NCBI GenBank assembly: GCA_026397505.1
Contig: JAPLUR010000010.1
Coordinates: 1-36,580 of the forward strand
DNA from: Candidatus Zixiibacteriota bacterium
Lineage (GTDB): Bacteria > Zixibacteria > MSB-5A5 > GN15 > PGXB01
Reading direction: 5' to 3'
Length of the DNA: 36,580 nucleotides
Part shown: positions 6,470-20,205 of the stretch, in pieces
Layout: each line of letters starts with the position of its first letter
How positions within the stretch are numbered: position 1 is the first letter of the stretch
Notes under the pieces: generated by a model
What the model saw: only the letters and a program-made list of their open reading frames with translations
Databases searched by the model: none
What the model was told of the DNA's origin: nothing
Program-made: the position numbers and the translations under genes

Positions 6470-6670
6470 ATGCTTATGACGAAAGCTATTGAAATTGAAA
6501 AGACGCTGTGGGAACAAATCGCAGATGAAATGCTCGCCCGTTTGTCTCGCAGGGTTGAATTTGAGGGACAAAGTCTCGAAGCCATCAGACGAGCGGTCGA
6601 ATGTGGTGATCTGAAGAACCCGTCAAAGGTGGCTGAAGCGATTACACCCAAAGGATCGATTGAGCTATGA
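6470..6670 (+). CDS. Small acidic partner protein of the SMC-like ATPase
   Basis: A 66-residue helical protein starting MLMTKAIEIEKTLWEQ. GAGGAAAG ends four bases before the ATG at 6470; the in-frame ATG at 6476 is an alternative. Its stop overlaps the start of the following ATPase gene in an ATGA arrangement (6667-6670), so the two are very likely translationally coupled and made in step. No domain is recognised. The sequence is rich in Glu, Arg and Ala, with a central segment LSRRVEFEGQSLEAIRRAVE. Small coupled genes upstream of RecF/SMC-like ATPases often encode regulatory or complex subunits; that role is inferred here from position only. Confidence 0.65.
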   Translation: MLMTKAIEIEKTLWEQIADEMLARLSRRVEFEGQSLEAIRRAVECGDLKNPSKVAEAITPKGSIEL

Positions 6671-9129
6671 AGTTGATGGAACTTGAGATTTGGAATGTAA
6701 GGGGAATCCCTTACCTAAAGCTCACGCCAAACGGGAAAAACTTGCTAATATGGGGACCTAATGGGTGCGGCAAGAGTGCGGTAGTAGATGCCATCGATTT
6801 CCTGCTTACGGGACGAATATCGCGTCTGACGGGAAAGGGTACTGCAGGTTTGTCGCTAAGCAAGCATGGACCGCATGTTGATCACGAACCCGAGGACGCG
6901 AAGGTTCGTGCAGTCATAATGCTGCCTGACGGCGCGACCAATACGGAACTTGTGAGATCGATGGCGGCACCCAACCGGCTCGACTATGATCATAAATTGG
7001 AGTCATCTCTCAGTCCCATTCTCGCTACCGCTTCGCAGGGCCAACATGTTTTGACAAGGCGAGAGATACTGAAATATGTGACGGCGGAGTCTAGCAGTCG
7101 AGCACAGGAGATTCAGGATCTCCTGAACATTACTGAGATTGAGGATATCCGAAAAGCTCTTGTAAAGGTGGCTCATGAAACTGAGAAAGGGCTCCAAACA
7201 GCAAAACGTCTTGAGGATGCAGCAAAAGCGGCAGCAGGCGCAACTACCCTGTTGAAAACATACGAATCCACTGCCGTGCTTAACTTTGCGAATGATAATC
7301 GCGTGCTGCTGAAAGGTGCCACACTAAGCGATTTACACTCAACAACGTTGAAGGTGGGCATTACTGCGCCACCAGCTCCAAGCACTTCGATTTCTTACAA
7401 CGTTGCCATACTTGAGAAGGATATACAGGGCCTCAAGGATCAAATGTCCGGTGAGCGGCAAGAGGAGGCGGTAGGACTAGTACAGAATCTCACAGCAAAA
7501 GTCGCAGGGATATGTTCTGACCCAGAAGCACTACGTGCCCTCTCTTGTTTAAACTTGGTGGAACTAGGTATTGGTCTCATCGACGACTCCGACAGTTGCC
7601 CGCTGTGTGAAACTATGTGGCCGCCCGGAGAATTGCGGGCACTCCTGCAAAGGCGTCTCATTGCCGCACAGTCCACCAAGGAGCAAAAAGAGCAGATAAT
7701 GGAGCTGGCATCTAAATTGACGACACTCTTGAACACCGCGATTCTTGGAGTGGAATCAATTGTCAGGGTCGGGAAACTCTTGGCCCTGGATGTAGACGTG
7801 TCAGCGCTTGAGGTCAGATTAAGCACTCTAAAGGGACTCTCGCAAATCATTGCAGAGCCGATTGAGAAGTCTAATGAACTGGCCAATGCACCAACAATTT
7901 TGCGTGAGAATTTTCTCGCGGGGACCCTTGTAGATCGTCTCGAACATATTCGCGCGGTCGCAGAAGCGTCGTGCCCGAAACCAACACCTGAGCAGACGGC
8001 ATGGGATACCCTTACTCACTTGGAAGAGAACCTGAAGGCCTTAGAGAAGGCACAAGCAGATCTCACCAAGGCTGTACTCGCTCAGAAGAGAGCAGAATTA
8101 CTTCTCGCGGACTTCCTGTTAGCGCGTGATACAGTCTTACAAAGACTCTACGATAGCATACGCGATCGCTTTGTTGAACTTTACAGGCAACTTCACAAAA
8201 TCGATGAATCGGTTTTTGCGGCGACTATCGTGCCCGACGGCGCAGGGCTCGATTTCCAAGTCGATTTCTATGGTCGCGGGCTGCACCCCCCGCACGCACT
8301 CCACAGTGAGGGACACCAAGACAGTATGGGGCTTTGTCTCTACATGGCCCTTGCAGAGCGACTTACAAAGGGGCTAATCGACTTGACTATCTTTGACGAC
8401 GTAGTAATGTCAGTGGACGCGGATCACCGCCGCCAGCTTTGTGAGATGCTCGCTGGCGCTTTCCCCGAGCGCCAATTTCTTATTACAACACACGACAGAA
8501 CTTGGGCAAGCCAGCTTCAGTATTTGGGCGTTGTATCGAAGGCCGCGGTTTATGAGTTCACGAACTGGAACATTGCGTCAGGCCCCGCGGTGGATTTTGA
8601 TGAGGCAATTTGGGATCGCATTGATGAAGACTTGAAGGAAAATGCGGTATCGTCGGCAGCACATAAACTACGGTGGGGATCAGAACAGTTCTTCCAGCTA
8701 GTATGTGATGCACTTCGTGTGCCTGTCGTTTACACACTTGATGGAAAACACGAGCTGGGCGAATATTTGATACCGGCCATGAATTATTACAAGAGCCTTG
8801 TAGCCAAGGCACAAAAAGCAGCAAAGTCATGGGGAAATTCCGAACTTGAACAAGCCCTTGTTGAGATCGATAGTGTCAGGAGCGCGATATTTAGCCGAAC
8901 TCACGCGGAACAATGGGGGATCAATGCGAATGTGCACTACAACAATTGGGCTAACTTCACACCAAATGACTTTAGACCAATTGTAGAGGCGTTTGCAGAT
9001 CTACATGGACTGTTTAAGTGCAATAAATGTCAGTCATTACTCACACTCGCGATGACAGATATGAAACCTGTTACTGTAAAATGTCGTTGCGGTAATGTGG
9101 ATTGGAACTTACTGACAAAGAATGACTAA
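6667..9129 (+). CDS. RecF/SMC-like AAA ATPase with CxxC hook and C-terminal zinc ribbon
   Basis: An 820-residue ATPase of the RecF/SMC/Rad50-like class. It begins with a strand-rich segment leading to the Walker A motif GPNGCGKS (30-37). A long, partly coiled-coil middle contains CPLC at 311-314 at the turn, reminiscent of a Rad50-type zinc hook. The Walker B region is LTIFDDVV (D577, D578) and the H-loop TTHD carries H609. Residues about 640-780 are an extra helical domain, and the tail has two cysteine pairs (C785/C788 and C806/C808) typical of a zinc ribbon. The protein probably acts on DNA or RNA ends in the cytoplasm. Isolated ATPases of this design next to a small partner and mobile DNA are common in anti-phage systems, so defence is likely but unproved. 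It follows the 66-aa gene with a 4-base overlap. Confidence 0.8.
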   Translation: MKLMELEIWNVRGIPYLKLTPNGKNLLIWGPNGCGKSAVVDAIDFLLTGRISRLTGKGTAGLSLSKHGPHVDHEPEDAKVRAVIMLPDGATNTELVRSMAAPNRLDYDHKLESSLSPILATASQGQHVLTRREILKYVTAESSSRAQEIQDLLNITEIEDIRKALVKVAHETEKGLQTAKRLEDAAKAAAGATTLLKTYESTAVLNFANDNRVLLKGATLSDLHSTTLKVGITAPPAPSTSISYNVAILEKDIQGLKDQMSGERQEEAVGLVQNLTAKVAGICSDPEALRALSCLNLVELGIGLIDDSDSCPLCETMWPPGELRALLQRRLIAAQSTKEQKEQIMELASKLTTLLNTAILGVESIVRVGKLLALDVDVSALEVRLSTLKGLSQIIAEPIEKSNELANAPTILRENFLAGTLVDRLEHIRAVAEASCPKPTPEQTAWDTLTHLEENLKALEKAQADLTKAVLAQKRAELLLADFLLARDTVLQRLYDSIRDRFVELYRQLHKIDESVFAATIVPDGAGLDFQVDFYGRGLHPPHALHSEGHQDSMGLCLYMALAERLTKGLIDLTIFDDVVMSVDADHRRQLCEMLAGAFPERQFLITTHDRTWASQLQYLGVVSKAAVYEFTNWNIASGPAVDFDEAIWDRIDEDLKENAVSSAAHKLRWGSEQFFQLVCDALRVPVVYTLDGKHELGEYLIPAMNYYKSLVAKAQKAAKSWGNSELEQALVEIDSVRSAIFSRTHAEQWGINANVHYNNWANFTPNDFRPIVEAFADLHGLFKCNKCQSLLTLAMTDMKPVTVKCRCGNVDWNLLTKND

Positions 9130-9162: not shown

Positions 9163-9660
9163 CTACTGGTTTTTCACTTTGCCAACCCAGGGCGGAGCCG
9201 AATCGATTGTCTGCCGAAGCATAAGATATAATTGGGCGGCATGATGCTGGACATGACGCATGGTATACAAAAGCAATTCAAAGTTGGTCAGTTCCGGCCT
9301 CTTGGAGCCACACGATTGATTGGCGGTCTCATCAGCCAGAGCCAGTATTGCCGCACGGCATTTCTCGCGTCCATGCTTGAGATAAGTATGAAGCTCCTCT
9401 TTGGAGTACACCCGCGGAGGAAGGACACCGGCCGGATCCATCTCCTCAAGACCAAAAGGGGCAGGAGGAGTAAACCGTTCCGCGGATTCCGACAAATAAA
9501 AATCAAGCCAGAAGAGGGTGTGGGAGGCCACATACCAATATTCCGGTTTTCGCGAGCGGTCGCCCCAAATTTTATCGGGGCAGGCGAGCAGGGCATTTTC
9601 AAGCATGTCAATGGCGGCTCCAAATTGCCGCCAAATGGTTGTTTTCCAATAGGTATCCAT
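9163..9660 (-). CDS. DinB-superfamily four-helix metal-binding protein
   Basis: About 165 residues from the ATG at 9660, which has TGGAG just upstream; a TTG at 9684 would add eight residues. The pattern MDTYWKTTIWRQFGAAIDML, then ASHTLFWLDFYLS with a histidine in helix 2, and MRHVQHHAAQLYLML with several histidines in a later helix, matches the DinB/YfiT-like four-helix bundle. In that superfamily three histidines bind a divalent metal. Members include thiol-dependent S-transferases and many unassigned proteins, so the reaction is unknown. The gene is transcribed divergently from the MsrB-MsrA gene and convergently with the ATPase gene, with only 33 bases between the latter two stops. Confidence 0.7.
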   Translation of the reverse strand: MDTYWKTTIWRQFGAAIDMLENALLACPDKIWGDRSRKPEYWYVASHTLFWLDFYLSESAERFTPPAPFGLEEMDPAGVLPPRVYSKEELHTYLKHGREKCRAAILALADETANQSCGSKRPELTNFELLLYTMRHVQHHAAQLYLMLRQTIDSAPPWVGKVKNQ

Positions 9661-9701
9661 ATTTCTCCATTTCTCCTGAGACAATTTGAATAAACATAAT
9701 C

Positions 9702-9720
9702 TGCGGGACGGTTGCCCGCA
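9702..9720. repeat. Short inverted repeat between divergent genes
   Basis: TGCGGG (9702-9707) pairs with CCCGCA (9715-9720) across a 7-base loop. It lies in the 210-base gap between two divergent starts, where an operator would be expected. No T-tract follows. The rest of the gap shows no gene. Confidence 0.35.
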
Positions 9721-9870
9721 ATCACTTTATAGTAAAGAATGATAGTCAAGACCGCCAGGGGGGCTTGGCCTGCGGGTCTGGAACTAATCACGCTCGGAGA
9801 TTGTTTTGCAGATAAATATATGGCCGTTGGCCCGGCTGGATTTTGCCCGGCTCAAGGATAAATTATTCTT

Positions 9871-10842
9871 ATGCAACTTGGAAAGAGTTATATATCGCTT
9901 ATGCTTCTGCTGGCCGTGGCGGTCACGGCGGCGGTGATCAGTTTCCCGTCGCGGCCATTGATATCCAAAGCGAATACCGAGGAGAATGCGATGACATACA
10001 ATAAATTGACACCGGAAGAAGAACGGGTGATTATTCACAAGGGAACGGAGGCGCCGTTCTCGGGGATATATTATAAGTACACCGCGGACGGCACGTATAC
10101 CTGCAGACAGTGCGGCGCGCCGCTGTTCAGTTCCAAAGACAAATTCGATGCCGGCTGCGGCTGGCCGAGTTTTGATGACGAAATTCCCGGCGCGGTCAAG
10201 CGAACGCTCGATGCCGATGGTATCCGCACCGAAATAACCTGCGCCCGCTGCGGCGCGCATCTGGGGCACCTGTTCGAGGGAGAGCAGATCACTCCCCAAA
10301 ATGCCCGCTATTGTGTCAATTCGATTTCGATGGATTTCACGCCGGTCGCACGGGGAACCAAAACCGATACGGCCTATTTTGCGGGAGGCTGTTTCTGGGG
10401 GACGGAGTACCTTCTTCAGCAGGCCGAGGGAGTACTATCGACACGGGTCGGCTATATGGGCGGCCACACGACCAATCCAACGTATGAAGAAGTCTGCGAT
10501 CATACTACCGGGCATGCCGAGGCGGTCGAGGTGGTATTCGATCCGGCCAAAACTGATTTTGAAACACTGGCGCGGCTGTTTTTCGAGATTCACGACCCGA
10601 CCCAGAAAAATCGCCAGGGGCCGGATATCGGCGATCAATACCGCTCGGCCATATTTTACAGGAATGAGATGCAGAAACAGATTGCCGAAAAATTGATTTC
10701 CATTTTGAAAGGGAAGGCGTACGATGTGGTCACCGAGGTGACCCCGGCCGAGAAGTTCTGGGAGGCGGAGCAGTATCATCAGGACTATTACGAGCATACC
10801 GGCAAACAACCATACTGCCATATATATAAGAAACGATTCTAA
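9871..10842 (+). CDS. msrAB: Bifunctional peptide-methionine sulfoxide reductase, MsrB-MsrA fusion
   Basis: A 323-residue protein that repairs oxidised methionine of both stereochemistries. Residues 7-25 are a hydrophobic signal or anchor. The MsrB domain (about 42-158) has the four zinc cysteines C78, C81, C124 and C127, the GCGWPSF motif, and catalytic C148 in RYCVNS. The MsrA domain (about 165-323) has catalytic C174 in GGCFWG. MsrB reduces the R-sulfoxide and MsrA the S-sulfoxide. The first ATG has only a distant AAGGA, whereas the internal ATG at 9991 (MTYNKLTPEE) is preceded by GAGGAG at six bases, so a second, cytosolic form lacking the export signal is plausible. The next gene starts about 60 bases downstream. 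Confidence 0.95.
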   Translation: MQLGKSYISLMLLLAVAVTAAVISFPSRPLISKANTEENAMTYNKLTPEEERVIIHKGTEAPFSGIYYKYTADGTYTCRQCGAPLFSSKDKFDAGCGWPSFDDEIPGAVKRTLDADGIRTEITCARCGAHLGHLFEGEQITPQNARYCVNSISMDFTPVARGTKTDTAYFAGGCFWGTEYLLQQAEGVLSTRVGYMGGHTTNPTYEEVCDHTTGHAEAVEVVFDPAKTDFETLARLFFEIHDPTQKNRQGPDIGDQYRSAIFYRNEMQKQIAEKLISILKGKAYDVVTEVTPAEKFWEAEQYHQDYYEHTGKQPYCHIYKKRF

Positions 10843-10900
10843 ATTATTGTCTTATCCGGGCCATAATTGAGTATATTCATGGTCGGAGAGATGAACGGCT

Positions 10901-13881: not shown

Positions 13882-14518
13882 TTCAGTATCTCCTTTCTAA
13901 GTTTTCTATTATTTTTGCGTCCACCCAATAGATTTATGTCGTCAAACAATTTGAACACGAACTTACTTCAAGTTAAGATGCTCCTTGCCTGATAGCAACT
14001 GTTTTTCGATATGATTCTCTCCTTTCCCCGATTGTTTCTATCTTGATTCGCTCTCTAATATTCCTTGTTCCGTCAGCTCTCGCTTCCGTCAATGAGGAAT
14101 CTACCCAGCTGTTTTTGATATACCTGGCCGGGTGAGAAGAAAAGAAATATCTCATAACAAGAATTCCAAAATAGAACAAATCATACTGACAGGAATTGAC
14201 AGGGGTTCAGTATATATTGCATATCAGTTTTGGCCATCTCGCAGGGAAAGTACAACAACCGCAAGTCAGCTTGGATTCATCGGGAAACGGTAATTACTGG
14301 AGGATGTTTAGGCAGTTGTCGCTGTGACATTACCGTAATGCTCCTGGTGGTCCATATTTTCGATGGCAATTTGCATTAAGGTTCTTTCGCCTTGTTGCCG
14401 AGAGCAGCCGACATCTCTCGACATAACTGGGATTGATTTGAAAAGGCTTAAACTATTTTGAGATACCGGAATGCCTGAAGGAATACAGGGATTTCGCCCA
14501 TAGGAGGTCTTAATTTTT
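13882..14518. other. Intergenic region upstream of the radical SAM gene
   Basis: About 640 bases without a convincing gene. It holds the second copy of the 40-bp repeat (14064-14103) and a TTGACA at about 14194 followed by an AT-rich run that could be a weak promoter. At 14502-14508 is AGGAGGT, the ribosome binding site of the radical SAM gene. No precursor-like peptide was found here. Confidence 0.45.
14064..14103 (+). repeat. 40-bp dispersed repeat, copy 2
   Basis: Three mismatches relative to 13248-13287, same orientation. Confidence 0.75.
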
Positions 14519-15919
14519 ATGGCAGATGAGTTAAAGCTGTCAAAATACAATCATTTCTTCAAGTTGGAAAACGGCAACTGGCTGGCATTTAATGCCTTGC
14601 GTTGTGGATTGGCGGAACTCGACCAACCCAGCTATGATAAGATCGCCATGTTTTCAGAGGGCAAAGAAACCCCGCACACTCCTGATAATGATGATTTGCG
14701 CAAAGATTTCATGAAAGGTGGATTTTTAATAGGATCGGATATTGAGGAAATTGACTTAATAAAATTTCGACATTATACCGCCCGTTTCGATGGCCGGCGA
14801 CTCGCACTCACTATTATACCCACCCTTGAATGCAATTTTGCATGCGATTATTGCTATGAAGACGCCCGACTTCATTCATTGCCGCCACATTGCGGAAGTA
14901 TAATGACCGATGAAGTGCATGATAATATTATCGGATTATGTGAACGTGAAATTTCGGAGGGATCTGCCTTCTCTGTTACATGGTATGGAGGCGAACCTTT
15001 GCTGGCGCCGCAAATCGTTGAGGAAATGTCCAATCATTTCATGAAAATTTGTGAGGCGAAGCAAAGTAAATATTTTGCCGGGATGGTGACCAATGGTTAT
15101 CTTCTTGACCAGGCCAATCTTGAATTGATTCTCAAAGCGAGAATAGCATTTCTTCAGATCACGGTTGATGGACCAAAGGAAGTTCATAATATTAGACGGC
15201 CTCTTAAAAATGGCGGAGGAACTTATGATCGGATTGTTGCCAATCTTGCCAATATCCCCGATAATGCTCCCATTATGCTATCAATACGCATAAATATCGA
15301 CAAGCGAAATCAAGAGAGCACTTCTCTTTTGCTTGAGGATTTAAAGAAAAGGGGATTTCACGAAAAACCCAATTTTCATCTTTGTTTGGGCCAGGTAATT
15401 CATTTATCAAAATCCTGCCCTGGTATCGCCGCGCAATGCATGATGACGGAGGAATTTTCCACTTTTTCAGCCAATACATACAAAATAGCCATGGATATGG
15501 GATTTAGAATCACGCATTACCCAATGATCATGATGAGCAACTGCGGCGCCATTCGCCGGGGTTCGGTCGTAATCGAACCAAATGGAAATATCCAGAACTG
15601 CTGGAATACCGTAGGTGAATCGGAACTGCGAACCGGGATTCTAACCCCCGAAGGGATTGAGTATAATCATAACTATGCTAAATGGTTGAGCTGGACCCCG
15701 TTCGAAAGCGATTGCAGAGAATGCAATATCCTGCCCATTTGCATGGGTGGGTGCCCGTACAAAAGACTATATCAAAAGAATGGTGCCTATGTTTGTAATG
15801 ATTTCTGTGCGAATTGGAAATACAATCTCATGTCTATGCTCAAGATTGTAAAAGAAGCAAAAGAACGCGGGCTTTGGCCTCAGGTCGAAAAGCGACCCCT
15901 TGTGGGTGATATCATATGA
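14519..15919 (+). CDS. Radical SAM/SPASM peptide maturase
   Basis: A 466-residue enzyme. Residues 1-90 resemble the precursor-binding N-terminus of peptide maturases (KYNHFFKLENGNWLAFNALR). The radical SAM motif ECNFACDYCY supplies C105, C109 and C112 for the SAM-cleaving 4Fe-4S cluster, and YGGEP (156-160) is the usual second motif. The C-terminal SPASM region carries C342, C361, C399, C402, C408, C412, C426 and C430, enough for two auxiliary clusters. Such enzymes install thioether, C-C or related crosslinks in ribosomal peptides. A strong AGGAGGT lies ten bases before the ATG. A Cys-rich peptide gene follows 67 bases downstream, so a maturase-substrate pair is the natural reading. No transporter or protease gene adjoins the pair. 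Confidence 0.9.
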   Translation: MADELKLSKYNHFFKLENGNWLAFNALRCGLAELDQPSYDKIAMFSEGKETPHTPDNDDLRKDFMKGGFLIGSDIEEIDLIKFRHYTARFDGRRLALTIIPTLECNFACDYCYEDARLHSLPPHCGSIMTDEVHDNIIGLCEREISEGSAFSVTWYGGEPLLAPQIVEEMSNHFMKICEAKQSKYFAGMVTNGYLLDQANLELILKARIAFLQITVDGPKEVHNIRRPLKNGGGTYDRIVANLANIPDNAPIMLSIRINIDKRNQESTSLLLEDLKKRGFHEKPNFHLCLGQVIHLSKSCPGIAAQCMMTEEFSTFSANTYKIAMDMGFRITHYPMIMMSNCGAIRRGSVVIEPNGNIQNCWNTVGESELRTGILTPEGIEYNHNYAKWLSWTPFESDCRECNILPICMGGCPYKRLYQKNGAYVCNDFCANWKYNLMSMLKIVKEAKERGLWPQVEKRPLVGDII

Positions 15920-15986
15920 AAAGCAATAATGCCTGTTCAGAACACAAAATCCTGAATCTCTATCATGTTTGAAAGGAGGTGACAAC

Positions 15987-16175
15987 ATGAATTGGTTGGT
16001 TGAACCGCCTGATGGTGGCGATGATCCATTGGACTGCGGGTCTAATGTTTGTATCATAAAGTTCTGCCCGATTGATGTATGTGCGGAGCTTTGCTTTCAC
16101 TGCCATTGCTGGCTCGATTGGCATATACCATGTGACATCTCTAATCCACCCCCTCGCCCGCCCAACGCTACATAG
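15987..16175 (+). CDS. Cysteine-rich putative RiPP precursor peptide
   Basis: A 62-residue peptide with an almost ideal ribosome binding site (AAGGAGGTGA, 15973-15982) four bases before the ATG at 15987. An upstream TTG frame is ignored because that binding site lies inside it. The N-terminus MNWLVEPPDGGDDPLD is acidic and cysteine-free. Then come eight cysteines at 17, 22, 27, 32, 36, 39, 41 and 49: four in exact CX4C steps, then CX3C, CX2C and CXC. The tail is proline-rich (NPPPRPPNAT). This layout, directly after a radical SAM/SPASM gene, fits a substrate for thioether formation of the sactipeptide/ranthipeptide kind. The class, cleavage site and activity cannot be read from the sequence. 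Confidence 0.75.
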   Translation: MNWLVEPPDGGDDPLDCGSNVCIIKFCPIDVCAELCFHCHCWLDWHIPCDISNPPPRPPNAT

Positions 16176-16268
16176 TGTATGGGATGGCTATGGATACGGG
16201 ATAAATCGGGTAACCCACCCGCCGCAAGCGGAATGATGACCTGACGGTTCTCTTAAGATTCTTTAAAA

Positions 16269-16388
16269 GCGAATTCAGCTTGACTTTGCGCCGAAAGTGG
16301 GTATTTTATATCAGATTTGGTGGAAAATTGCAATTATTAATTTGCACCTGGCCTAGAGTATTGGAATTCCCACCCGTTGGGTGAGTTA
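16269..16388 (+). repeat. 120-bp dispersed repeat, copy 2 (upstream of the STAND nuclease gene)
   Basis: Ungapped partner of 6331-6450 (93 of 120 positions). In this copy the end can fold as CACCC-GTT-GGGTG (16371-16383). It ends 37 bases before the ATG of the 1259-aa gene. Confidence 0.85.
16280..16307 (+). promoter_or_regulatory. Promoter inside the 120-bp repeat, copy 2
   Basis: TTGACT (16280-16285), 16 bases, TATTTT (16302-16307), the same hexamers and spacing as copy 1. The expected leader is about 110 bases, most of it repeat sequence. Confidence 0.5.
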
Positions 16389-16425
16389 CCAATTTGATTT
16401 GATGAATAATTAATTTAACGTTTAT

Positions 16426-19400
16426 ATGGACACTGTTTTTACAGTAACTGCGAATCACCTTTTTAACCTTGGGCCCCAAGACGCCGTTAATGTTGTGCGA
16501 CAATTGCTGTGGGCAGAGGCAACCGCAATCGGACTACCCAGATCTCAAATAAACGTTCCATTCAATATTAATGCTGCAGATGGCGGAATTGACGCCGAGG
16601 TTACTCTGCCACCAGGGCCTACATCTAAAGGCCTCCTGATCCAAGGCACCTGCAAATATCAAATCAAATCCGGTCCCATTCCTCGCCTTACTGACAAAGT
16701 GCTACGGGATCTTCTATATGAAAAACGCACAAAAGAGTTAAAAGGTGGCGTAAGGCATTGTTTTGAGCAGGGTGGCACTTTTGTCGCATTGCTGTTTGGT
16801 TGGGACAACCCCAGACATAACTTGGAGGATAAGATTTCCAAGATGACCGAAATCATCGAAAAGCAATATCCAGATTTGGGTCGAGTCAAGATCACAGTTT
16901 GGGGCCAAAACAAGATTGCCTCTCTCGTTTCGGTTTATCCATCAATTTCTTTGGCAATCACCAGTCGGGGCGGACTAATGCAAACTCACAAAAGATGGTC
17001 CGCAAACGCCAATATGTCCTATACATATTTCCCGACCTCAAACATTGACTCAATAATTAAGACAATCATCGACGAATTACTGTCCACTTCGCAGAATAAT
17101 CGAATTCATGTATTTGGCGACTCGGGTGTGGGCAAAACAAGAATAGTACTCGAAGCTACTAGAGACGAAAGAATCCAACCCCTTATTCTCTATTTCAGCA
17201 ATCCTGGCGATCTTCGGAATAGTGATTTATATCGCGAACTCGCAAAGGGCGATAACCCCTTTCGGTGCATTCTGATCGTAGATGAATGCTCACCGGAAAA
17301 AGGGTATGAATTAACCAATTTCCTTGGCCCAAATCGGCAAGGAATACGACTGATAACAATCAATGATGAGAGGGTTTCGAGAATATCAGGGACTGTAAAT
17401 ATCGGTGTTCCCCGATTACCACGTGAACAATCGATGGCCATTATTTCGTCCTATGGCATTGAGAGTGTTGATGCATCACGCTGGGCAGATTTTGTAGACG
17501 GATTTGCGCGAGATGCGCATGATGTCGGTCAACATCTTGTTGGCGAGGAACCAAATTTGCTCAAGAGTCCCGACATGATAAGGGTTTGGCAGAGTCGGAT
17601 ATCGATAAATTGTACTCCCGGGTCAAATGAGCACTCACGACGTGTTTTAGTACTACGCTGCTTGAGTCTATATAGACAATTTGGATTTGATTCAGATCAC
17701 TATAGGCGTCACAGGAATGTTATCTGCTCCAAAGTCCAAGAAATTGACTCTACTATCAGCAAACCTCAATTTGAATCAATAATCGTAAGCCTTCGTGACA
17801 TAGGCATCCTTAGAGGCGAATATGTGCTTCGTTTCACCCGCAAACTGATGCACTTAAGGATGTGGGTAGAATGGTGGGAACACTATGGGGGTACATACAA
17901 CTATAGCAGATTCGTTGAGGGCGTTCCTGACGATCTAATCGGTTGGCACAATGAAATGTTCACATACGCCGCCGAATCACCTACAGCAGAGAAGATTACT
18001 CGGGACCTACTCGGGCCTGATGGTGCTTTCCCTACTGGTGAATCGCTGAACTCAATGCTTTCGTCCCGCTTATTTTTTGCTCTGACAAATGCGGATTCAA
18101 CGGCAGCATGCGCCGCGTTGGAGAGAGCCATTGGTTCATGGAATGAAGACCAGTTGCGGCATTTTGAGGACGGAAGGCGGTACGTAGTATGGGCACTAGA
18201 GCGCATTGTTATTTGGAAAGAAACATTTGAGCGAGGTGCAAGACTCCTATTGGCCCTCGCACGAGCCGAGACAGAGGATGTGGCCAACAACGCAACTGGA
18301 GTGTTCGCGGAATTATTTGCCCCCGGTTTTGGCCGTCTTGCACCCACAGAAGTTCCGCCTATGAAGCGTATTACGCTGCTTCAGGAGTTGTTCGATTCGG
18401 GAAATCACGTTAATATTCGCATAGCTCTATTGGCCTGTGATAAGGCCCTAGGGACTCAAGGGGGTTTCAGAGAAGTTGGTCCCGAATATCAGGGCTTGAA
18501 GAAGTTGCCGGAATTATGGACGCCGAAAACCTGGGGCGAGTTGTACGAATATTATGAAACAGTTTGGAATTTGGTGTCTGCCCACTACGCCACACTGGAC
18601 ACTGAAAATGCCAAGAAAGGCATCGAAATACTTCTAAACAGGGCAAGGGGATTGGCACAGATACAGTATTTAGCGCCTATTGTTCAGAAGACCATGGAAA
18701 ACCTGGCCAGCTCCTACATGGTTGATAAGGAAGAGGTGGTCAAAGTAATTTTGCGAATTCTACACTATGATCGTAATATGGCTCCCCCCGATATAGTTGC
18801 TAAATGGGAAGAGATCCAAAAAGATATCGTTGGTTCAGACTTTAGTTCGCTCTTAAAACGATATGTTGGCATGTTCATATATGAAGACCACATTGATGAC
18901 AAGGGCAATAAAACTGATGTCGCTCGTGCCAGGATAGGCACACTTGCAGAGAAGGTAGCAGCGGAACCGGCATTGTTGAATTCAGAGCTTACCTGGTTGA
19001 TGACAGAAAAGGCGGCCCGTGGTGTTGAGTTTGGCTTTGATTTGGGCTCAATTGATACTGTGAATTCTTTTCTGCCATTACTTATTGAAAGTCAGAAGCG
19101 AGGCGATAACAGAGCATTTCTAGGGGGGTACTTCGCTGCTCTGCTTCATCGCGATGAAAGTCTTTGGGAGACAACACTCGAGGAAATTGCCAATGATGAT
19201 GAAACAGTCGGTTGGGTACCCGAACTGACTTGGCGCTCAGGTATCACTGACAGAGCAGCGAAGCGTATACTGGAACTCGCGGAGGCAGCAAAGATCCGCC
19301 CTGAAGATCTGGAGCCTTTCTCAAGAGGAGGAATTGCCAGAAAGATCGCTGAATCAATATTAATTGGGTGGCTTAGGTTCTTGCTGTCCCCCGGCAACAG

Positions 19401-20205
19401 GAAGTCGATTGCAATTGCTATGCAATTACATCATTATTACTATGCGTACCCCGAGCCAGTACGCACGATGCCACGAGATATAACTCTCGAGCTAATATTG
19501 CATGATTCACTGTTTGATTTGGACCAGAGGGATGAGTGGATTGCTCCTATCGTCGATGGCATCTGGGAGTGGACAGCACTCGCTCTGCTTTATCAGAATC
19601 CTGATATCGGTTTAGAAATCGCCAAGAAGTACATTGTTAATTTTGGATTGGAAGGGACGATAATTGGAGGATATCATTCGGGATCGCAGAGGGTTATGAA
19701 CGCAATCGCCGAGAGATTTCCTTCAGCAGTATGGCAGCTTGCCGTAAGAGAGATTGGTCCTCCTGTCACCGCAGTGGCATTCCACATCTCGCAATGGCTT
19801 AGGGGCGGCGAGTTCTCTCCGGCACCTCAGGGTGCGATGTATTTCTTTGATCGCACAGATATTTGGCGATGGGTTGACGCAAATAAAAATGAGAGAGCGC
19901 CTTATATGGCCTACATAGTCCCTCCAAGTCTTTCCAATCAAGGTGGCGTTACTAGTCTGGCTAGAGATGTCTTGGTCCGATATGGGGGTATTGAGGCTGT
20001 GCGAAATGAGTTCCATGCAAACTACGGGACCGAGGGATTTACTGGACCTGGTAGCCTACATTTTAGAAAGAAAAAGGCTGCTCTTGAACAGTTACGATCG
20101 ATTGAGCAAGATGCGAATGTGTTACAATGGTTAGATGAAGAGATTAAGTCTGTAGAGTACATCATCGAAAGAGAGAAGATCGAAGAAGAGCATAGAGGTT
20201 TCTAG
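16426..20205 (+). CDS. STAND-type NTPase with N-terminal PD-(D/E)XK nuclease region, likely anti-phage
   Basis: A 1259-residue protein in three parts. Residues 1 to about 185 look like a PD-(D/E)XK nuclease of the Mrr/Cap4 kind: E31 in the first helix, D56 in GGIDAEV, and Q79-x-K81 in YQIKSG. Residues about 200-470 are a P-loop NTPase of the STAND/AAA type, with Walker A GDSGVGKT (231-238) and Walker B ILIVDE (282-287). The remaining 780 residues are mostly helical and lack recognisable motifs, as expected for a sensor built of repeats. In known antiviral STAND (Avs) proteins the C-terminal part recognises a phage protein and NTPase assembly switches on an N-terminal effector. Architecture is the basis of the assignment here. 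The ATG lacks a clear ribosome binding site. Codon use is more A/T-ending than in the housekeeping genes, consistent with transfer. Confidence 0.8.
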   Translation: MDTVFTVTANHLFNLGPQDAVNVVRQLLWAEATAIGLPRSQINVPFNINAADGGIDAEVTLPPGPTSKGLLIQGTCKYQIKSGPIPRLTDKVLRDLLYEKRTKELKGGVRHCFEQGGTFVALLFGWDNPRHNLEDKISKMTEIIEKQYPDLGRVKITVWGQNKIASLVSVYPSISLAITSRGGLMQTHKRWSANANMSYTYFPTSNIDSIIKTIIDELLSTSQNNRIHVFGDSGVGKTRIVLEATRDERIQPLILYFSNPGDLRNSDLYRELAKGDNPFRCILIVDECSPEKGYELTNFLGPNRQGIRLITINDERVSRISGTVNIGVPRLPREQSMAIISSYGIESVDASRWADFVDGFARDAHDVGQHLVGEEPNLLKSPDMIRVWQSRISINCTPGSNEHSRRVLVLRCLSLYRQFGFDSDHYRRHRNVICSKVQEIDSTISKPQFESIIVSLRDIGILRGEYVLRFTRKLMHLRMWVEWWEHYGGTYNYSRFVEGVPDDLIGWHNEMFTYAAESPTAEKITRDLLGPDGAFPTGESLNSMLSSRLFFALTNADSTAACAALERAIGSWNEDQLRHFEDGRRYVVWALERIVIWKETFERGARLLLALARAETEDVANNATGVFAELFAPGFGRLAPTEVPPMKRITLLQELFDSGNHVNIRIALLACDKALGTQGGFREVGPEYQGLKKLPELWTPKTWGELYEYYETVWNLVSAHYATLDTENAKKGIEILLNRARGLAQIQYLAPIVQKTMENLASSYMVDKEEVVKVILRILHYDRNMAPPDIVAKWEEIQKDIVGSDFSSLLKRYVGMFIYEDHIDDKGNKTDVARARIGTLAEKVAAEPALLNSELTWLMTEKAARGVEFGFDLGSIDTVNSFLPLLIESQKRGDNRAFLGGYFAALLHRDESLWETTLEEIANDDETVGWVPELTWRSGITDRAAKRILELAEAAKIRPEDLEPFSRGGIARKIAESILIGWLRFLLSPGNRKSIAIAMQLHHYYYAYPEPVRTMPRDITLELILHDSLFDLDQRDEWIAPIVDGIWEWTALALLYQNPDIGLEIAKKYIVNFGLEGTIIGGYHSGSQRVMNAIAERFPSAVWQLAVREIGPPVTAVAFHISQWLRGGEFSPAPQGAMYFFDRTDIWRWVDANKNERAPYMAYIVPPSLSNQGGVTSLARDVLVRYGGIEAVRNEFHANYGTEGFTGPGSLHFRKKKAALEQLRSIEQDANVLQWLDEEIKSVEYIIEREKIEEEHRGF

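Follow-up and report, generated by a model that had tools for sequence, protein, structure and literature searches.

The window, that is, the whole stretch of 36,580 nucleotides analysed here, corresponds to contig C10 in a Candidatus Zixiibacteriota genome of 3.44 Mb, assembled in 147 contigs. Two open reading frames, both intact, both on the forward strand and separated by 67 nt, encode a radical SAM/SPASM peptide maturase and a short cysteine-rich peptide, with the following features:

14502..14508, +, AGGAGGT ribosome binding site of the maturase gene, read from the sequence
14519..15919, +, radical SAM/SPASM peptide maturase of 466 aa, Clo7bot/TIGR04463-like, below the cut-offs of all specific NCBIfam families
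14531..14785, +, RRE-like N-terminal domain, residues about 5-89, predicted to bind the leader (AlphaFold2 model and whole-length structural alignment)
14831..14854, +, CX3CX2C motif (C105/C109/C112) of the SAM-binding 4Fe-4S cluster, invariant in 31 maturases
15542..15808, +, SPASM domain, residues 342-430, with the ligands of two auxiliary Fe-S clusters
15972..15980, +, AAAGGAGGT ribosome binding site of the precursor peptide gene, read from the sequence
15987..16175, +, precursor peptide of 62 aa with eight Cys
15987..16007, +, leader MNWLVEP; family motif M-x-[WYF]-[LIV]-x-x-P
16035..16133, +, Cys-rich core, residues 17-49

A longer reading of the peptide from TTG 15969 also exists. Because AAAGGAGGT occupies 15972-15980 and ends 6 nt upstream of ATG 15987, we took this ATG as the start. 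The preliminary description had called this ribosome binding site nearly perfect, and strong sites turned out to be general on precursor genes, GGAGG-type sites preceding nearly all homologous precursors.

Motifs, family profiles and predicted fold of the maturase

The enzyme had been described as a SPASM maturase with three SAM-cluster cysteines and eight more in the SPASM region, and both counts were borne out. The SAM-cluster motif is C105-X3-C109-X2-C112, and eight Cys occur from residue 342 on, arranged as C342-X13-G-X4-C361, C399-X2-C402-X5-C408-X3-C412, C426 and C430, so that the SPASM pattern CX9-15GX4C - CX2CX5CX3C - C is complete. PF04055 (Radical_SAM) matched with 54 bits (cut-off 29.5) and the NCBIfam SPASM domain TIGR04085 with 53.6 bits (cut-off 27). 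Among 31 maturases, C342, G356, C361, C399 and C402 are invariant, and C408, C412 and C430 are present in at least 90%.

Of the specific profiles, TIGR04334 (Clo7bot) scored best with 337.8 bits (cut-off 600), followed by TIGR04463 with 334 bits (cut-off 525). Lower scores were obtained with CefB (NF038107; 232.6 bits, cut-off 600), the geopeptide maturase profile (152 bits), PapB (NF047865; 121.1 bits, cut-off 340), anSME (92 bits, cut-off 349) and SCIFF (TIGR03974; 75 bits, cut-off 425). The top family profiles are mostly maturases acting on Cys-rich peptides. The search against maturase families, suggested earlier as a check, thus confirmed the general kind of enzyme, with all specific NCBIfam families below cut-off. 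Judged by these scores, the maturase belongs, in the broad sense, to the SPASM enzymes that mature Cys-rich peptides and to no named family among those tested. As enzyme and peptide both lie below every specific NCBIfam cut-off, we regard them as an unnamed subfamily of a known kind.

A single-chain AlphaFold2 model, computed from the 31-sequence alignment, had a mean pLDDT of 91 and a pTM of 0.90, with pLDDT values of 86-97 in the N-terminal part. In the model, the N-terminal 90 residues form four strands (5-7, 11-15, 21-25 and 30-34), two helices, a short strand and another helix (helices at 36-46, 55-66 and 77-89). This order is the one expected of a fused RRE, and on our own reading of the fold order we call the domain "RRE-like". 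Foldseek gave CteB (5WGG/5WHY) and TigE (8VPO) as the best matches of the model, then anSME and ChlB. With VIA-align, the alignments to CteB (Z 28, 405 residues, CteB residues 1-450) and TigE (Z 23.8, 399 residues, TigE 3-463) covered almost the whole length and included the N-terminal domain. The alignment to anSME (Z 28) begins at residue 93, which indicates that anSME has no such domain. CteB is a Cys-Thr thioether enzyme; the fold that the model shares with CteB, TigE and anSME does not reveal the reaction.

The source genome encodes four more full-length paralogous maturases with 34-37% identity, giving five parallel maturases. A shorter second radical SAM gene (about 350-370 aa) adjoins three of these paralogs (L003 390-1433, L004 356-1471 and G000:C125 near 46284, the last being L008).

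Conservation of the leader and variation of the Cys-rich core

We searched the available genomes of the class, mostly draft metagenome bins, for orthologs. Searching at the rank of the phylum covered the same genomes as at that of the class. A single-sequence scan of the contigs found no maturase loci; a profile scan found them. Five orthologous maturases were recovered, in G007 (52% identity), G048 (50%), G006 (47%), G020 (45%) and G096 (44%); the G020 copy is interrupted by internal stops and the G048 copy is truncated by the contig end. Downstream DNA was readable at four of the five loci, and at all four a small ORF with the same start lies directly 3' of the maturase, so that the pairing in relatives that had been proposed as a check was observed. 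The leaders are MNWLVKP and MNWIVSP in G007, MTWIVEP in G006, MNWLVIP in G096, and MNWIAEP and MKWIVQP in G020, with two precursors each in G007 and G020. BLAST with the peptide alone against 60 related genomes gave no convincing ortholog (best E 0.014); the peptide orthologs were recognized only from small ORFs beside maturase orthologs.

In the tree, the window maturase groups with those of G007, G006 and G096 in a clade with a support of 100, and this subclade falls together with TIGR04463-type enzymes in a supported 17-row clade. Mean identity among the seven subclade peptides is 68% in residues 1-7, compared with 22% in the remainder and 14% there when Cys are left out. M1, W3 and P7 are invariant in an alignment of 13 peptides that includes all seven. 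Cys is the sole recurrent residue of the core, and the C17, C22 and C36 columns are invariant or nearly so in the same alignment. A leader that is kept while the core varies freely is the hallmark of RiPP precursors.

The Cys of the window peptide are at positions 17, 22, 27, 32, 36, 39, 41 and 49, with spacings of 4, 4, 4, 3, 2, 1 and 7. The preliminary description had reported this arrangement correctly (eight Cys within residues 17-49, the first four as CX4C, then X3, X2 and X1) and had taken the ladder as a defining feature. In random trials with 8 Cys in a 33-residue span and fixed ends, framed after the pattern had been seen, three consecutive X4 spacings arose in 0.3%, a non-increasing run over the first six spacings in 0.5% and any three equal spacings in 5.6%. 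The six ortholog peptides have irregular spacings (3,4,0,8,3,6; 4,5,4,2; 8,6,3,3,2; 4,0,3,6,2,4; 4,0,3,6,5; 7,17), and Cys at every fifth position was a conserved rule neither in the window peptide nor in any of these six. Since the orthologs do not keep the register, the spacing is a property of the window copy only, and the shrinking CX4C ladder was rejected both as the defining feature and as a recognition rule. To call CX4C spacing unlike every known system would also be too strong, because NCBIfam already holds the "Cys-every-fifth" pair CefA/CefB (NF038108/NF038107), although neither gene reaches the CefA/CefB cut-offs.

To analyze the pairing more widely, we searched 41 Zixibacteria loci with a regular expression for the leader, requiring also a ribosome binding site and three or more Cys. 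In the 218.6 kb lying within 2 kb of a maturase there were 49 such peptides, compared with 2 in 374.4 kb of flanks; as the motif had been derived from near peptides at the same loci, this comparison is in part circular. All 49 are on the strand of the maturase; strand and distance bias were not used in defining the motif and are independent of it. The two flank peptides are both on the same strand of L188, beyond its other precursors, and shuffled loci gave 0-1. At least one leader-motif peptide occurs at 26 of the 41 loci; among the loci that have none, several fall in a different branch of the tree. The two genes are paired far more often than expected by chance. Outside the phylum, similar leaders also stand near maturases in Bacillota (MEWIVKP and MNWIVAP; elsewhere in that group MKFLVKP or MKYVVRP), Aminicenantes (MEWIVNP) and Thermus composti (MRWVVKP).

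In a paralogous maturase clade, arrays of one to seven precursors with the leader M-x-[YF]-L-[IV]-x-P lie beside the maturase, for example in L168 (G000 contig C69, about 9477-10843, - strand); L170, L174, L176, L177, L179, L181, L183, L184, L186, L188, L190, L193, L194 and L196-L200, among others, also belong to this group. Most array precursors share a conserved C-terminal [CLM]YG[VIL], often followed by Pro. A constant C-terminal motif is unusual in a RiPP core.

We compared the pair with the known systems. Like Clo7bot (TIGR04334/TIGR04333), it has a SPASM maturase of comparable length that aligns end to end and is adjoined by short Cys-rich precursors with a similar N-terminus, one ortholog peptide aligning weakly to TIGR04333 positions 1-19. 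Unlike Clo7bot, the window peptide has no TIGR04333 match (cut-off 31 bits), the maturase is far below 600, and the tree separates the window from the clade that holds the top-scoring Clo7bot-like enzyme, which comes from a Roseburia bin. As for TIGR04463, the 17-row clade contains a Thiothrix enzyme that passes the 525 cut-off, but no comparable leader peptide was found at most TIGR04463-type loci. CefA/CefB has in common with the pair the CX4C spacing and a SPASM maturase, and residues 17-44 of the window peptide align weakly to CefA (13.4 bits, cut-off 30), whereas the X4 register runs for only three steps in the window peptide and is absent from the orthologs. The ranthipeptide systems CteB/thermocellin (SCIFF) and PapB/freyrasin combine an N-terminal leader-binding domain, SAM core and SPASM domain with a Cys-rich substrate, an arrangement predicted for the pair as well; unlike PapA, the window peptide has no CX3D/E repeats. 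anSME has the SAM-SPASM core but lacks the N-terminal domain, and its substrate is a sulfatase. In a literature search with most subscription journals outside its scope, we found no work on Clo7bot, Cys-every-fifth, TIGR04463 or FlmE/OhkG.

Neighbouring genes and the protease/exporter module

At three of the four orthologous loci whose downstream DNA could be read (G007, G020 and G096), the peptide gene precedes genes for one or more Rce1-like (CAAX-type) membrane proteins, an ABC ATPase, an ABC-2 permease and a Yip1-domain protein. Pfam supplied these assignments for the proteins of G096 and for one Rce1-like protein of G007; the others were assigned by sequence resemblance and gene order. 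The module is absent at the window locus and in G006. It had been noted earlier that no transporter, protease or immunity gene is present; this holds for the window copy and G006 but not for the subfamily. Elsewhere in the source genome, the homologs of the ABC-2 permease and the Yip1 protein are distant (19-22% identity) and on other contigs, and two Rce1-like proteins are also encoded on other contigs, so processing in trans is possible.

Upstream of the G096 maturase lies a protein with TPR and sigma-54 activator domains (L162 5173-7326), and by sequence reading an apparently similar protein occurs in G048 on the opposite strand (L040 1-1375). Expression of orthologous maturase loci may possibly be under signal control. 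Because sigma-54 activators stand near two orthologs, we scanned for a sigma-54 promoter upstream of the window maturase and found none; sigma-70 promoter and terminator scans at the window locus gave no decisive match.

Other observations concern the surroundings of the pair. Directly after the peptide, a 1259-aa protein (16426-20205, +) matches the candidate defence protein PD-Lambda-4_A with 86 bits, best over its N-terminal 380 residues. An 820-aa SMC/AAA-like ATPase (6667-9129, +) has partial LmuB/PtuA-type defence matches of 67 bits at best. The maturase with its intergenic flanks (13882-16425) has a GC content of 40-43%, compared with 50-55% in the genes on either side and 46% in the PD-Lambda-4-like gene; the stretch 13882-16425 may be a variable island.

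Proposed mechanism, rival readings and significance

The analysis establishes the gene pair, the conservation of its leader, the co-occurrence of the two genes and the domain anatomy, together with a predicted fold of the maturase. The two adjacent genes very probably encode a small Cys-rich peptide and a radical enzyme that cross-links it. The likely form of this, in our view, is a minimal two-gene RiPP cassette, in which a leader-bound SPASM maturase closes Cys thioether rings in the core. The precursor N-terminus MNWLVEP would serve as the recognition leader and be bound by the RRE-like N-terminal domain. The radical SAM core would then generate a 5'-deoxyadenosyl radical and take hydrogens from residues in the Cys-rich part of the peptide; together with the pair of auxiliary SPASM Fe-S clusters, it would close several S-to-C bonds from Cys into thioether rings, at a loss of about 2 Da per ring. 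We based this mechanism on the established work on CteB and PapB, covering leader binding by the RRE, radical generation and thioether closure (PMC11002830). Ring topology may be set by leader-tethered action rather than by a fixed Cys spacing; the finding that PapB, given the leader, tolerates Cys-Xn-Asp with n = 0-6 (PMC9413430) fits the lack of conserved spacing in the ortholog peptides. At the three loci with the module, the Rce1-like membrane protease and the ABC-2 exporter probably trim and export the product. As the module is absent at the window locus, the product there would be exported by machinery encoded elsewhere or be retained in the cell.

The main rival keeps the same cassette but assigns it another radical chemistry, such as C-C or C-N bonds at core Trp, Phe or Asp, epimerisation, a cyclopropane or Cys-derived heterocycles, with the Cys left for disulphides or metal. 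SPASM enzymes of the superfamily have many outcomes (PMC11002830), and TigE and anSME fit the model about as well as CteB. Further, the G006 peptide has three Cys only, and the G007 maturase (L037, 150-1544) lacks one ligand Cys in the SPASM CX3C, reading CMGG-PY where CMGGCPY is expected, through either the clean loss of one residue or an error in sequencing; these two cases imply that Cys cross-linking need not be general. However, the closest families that have a name act on Cys-rich peptides, and the recurrence of Cys alone in the core, with its three near-invariant columns, also argues against the rival, which we consider unlikely. From sequence one cannot tell the residues that decide between a thioether, a C-C cross-link and other radical chemistry.

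That the cassette is a degenerate remnant, no longer functional after loss of the protease/exporter module, seems improbable to us: the module is missing here and in G006 though present in the other readable orthologs, and the G020 maturase is interrupted, but both window genes are intact, have strong ribosome binding sites and keep every ligand Cys. Still less credible is a metallothionein-like metal or redox protein lying beside a radical SAM gene of unrelated purpose. Eight Cys and three His in 62 aa would suit such a protein, and an ArsM-like methyltransferase and a methionine sulfoxide reductase fusion are encoded nearby in the window; at the orthologous loci, however, reading the ORFs by eye brought out no obvious arsM- or Msr-like gene. 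A Pfam search with the peptide gave no match, and so none to a metal-binding family, an outcome that the preliminary description had named as refuting. Pairing and leader are kept while Cys spacing is not, the reverse of what a metal site would predict, and on these grounds we rejected the metallothionein reading.

Returning to the thioether cassette, we also weighed a broader version of it, in which the MNW subclade would be a RiPP class of its own, as yet unnamed, in Zixibacteria. A leader of about 7 conserved residues would direct the maturase to cores whose Cys arrangement is almost unconstrained, yielding dense, nested knots of thioethers (with as many as eight Cys in 33 residues), and a dedicated Rce1-like/ABC-2/Yip1 module would be absent from this genome, leaving the product to act inside the cell. 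We hold this to be doubtful.

The subfamily is a new branch of a type of system already known, so the surprise is moderate. Nevertheless, these peptides are an unnamed Cys-rich radical-SAM subfamily from a phylum with few cultured members. Their leader is short and clear, several enzyme/substrate pairs are ready for use, and a protease/exporter module is linked to some of them. A core left free behind so short a leader would help in making cross-linked peptides.
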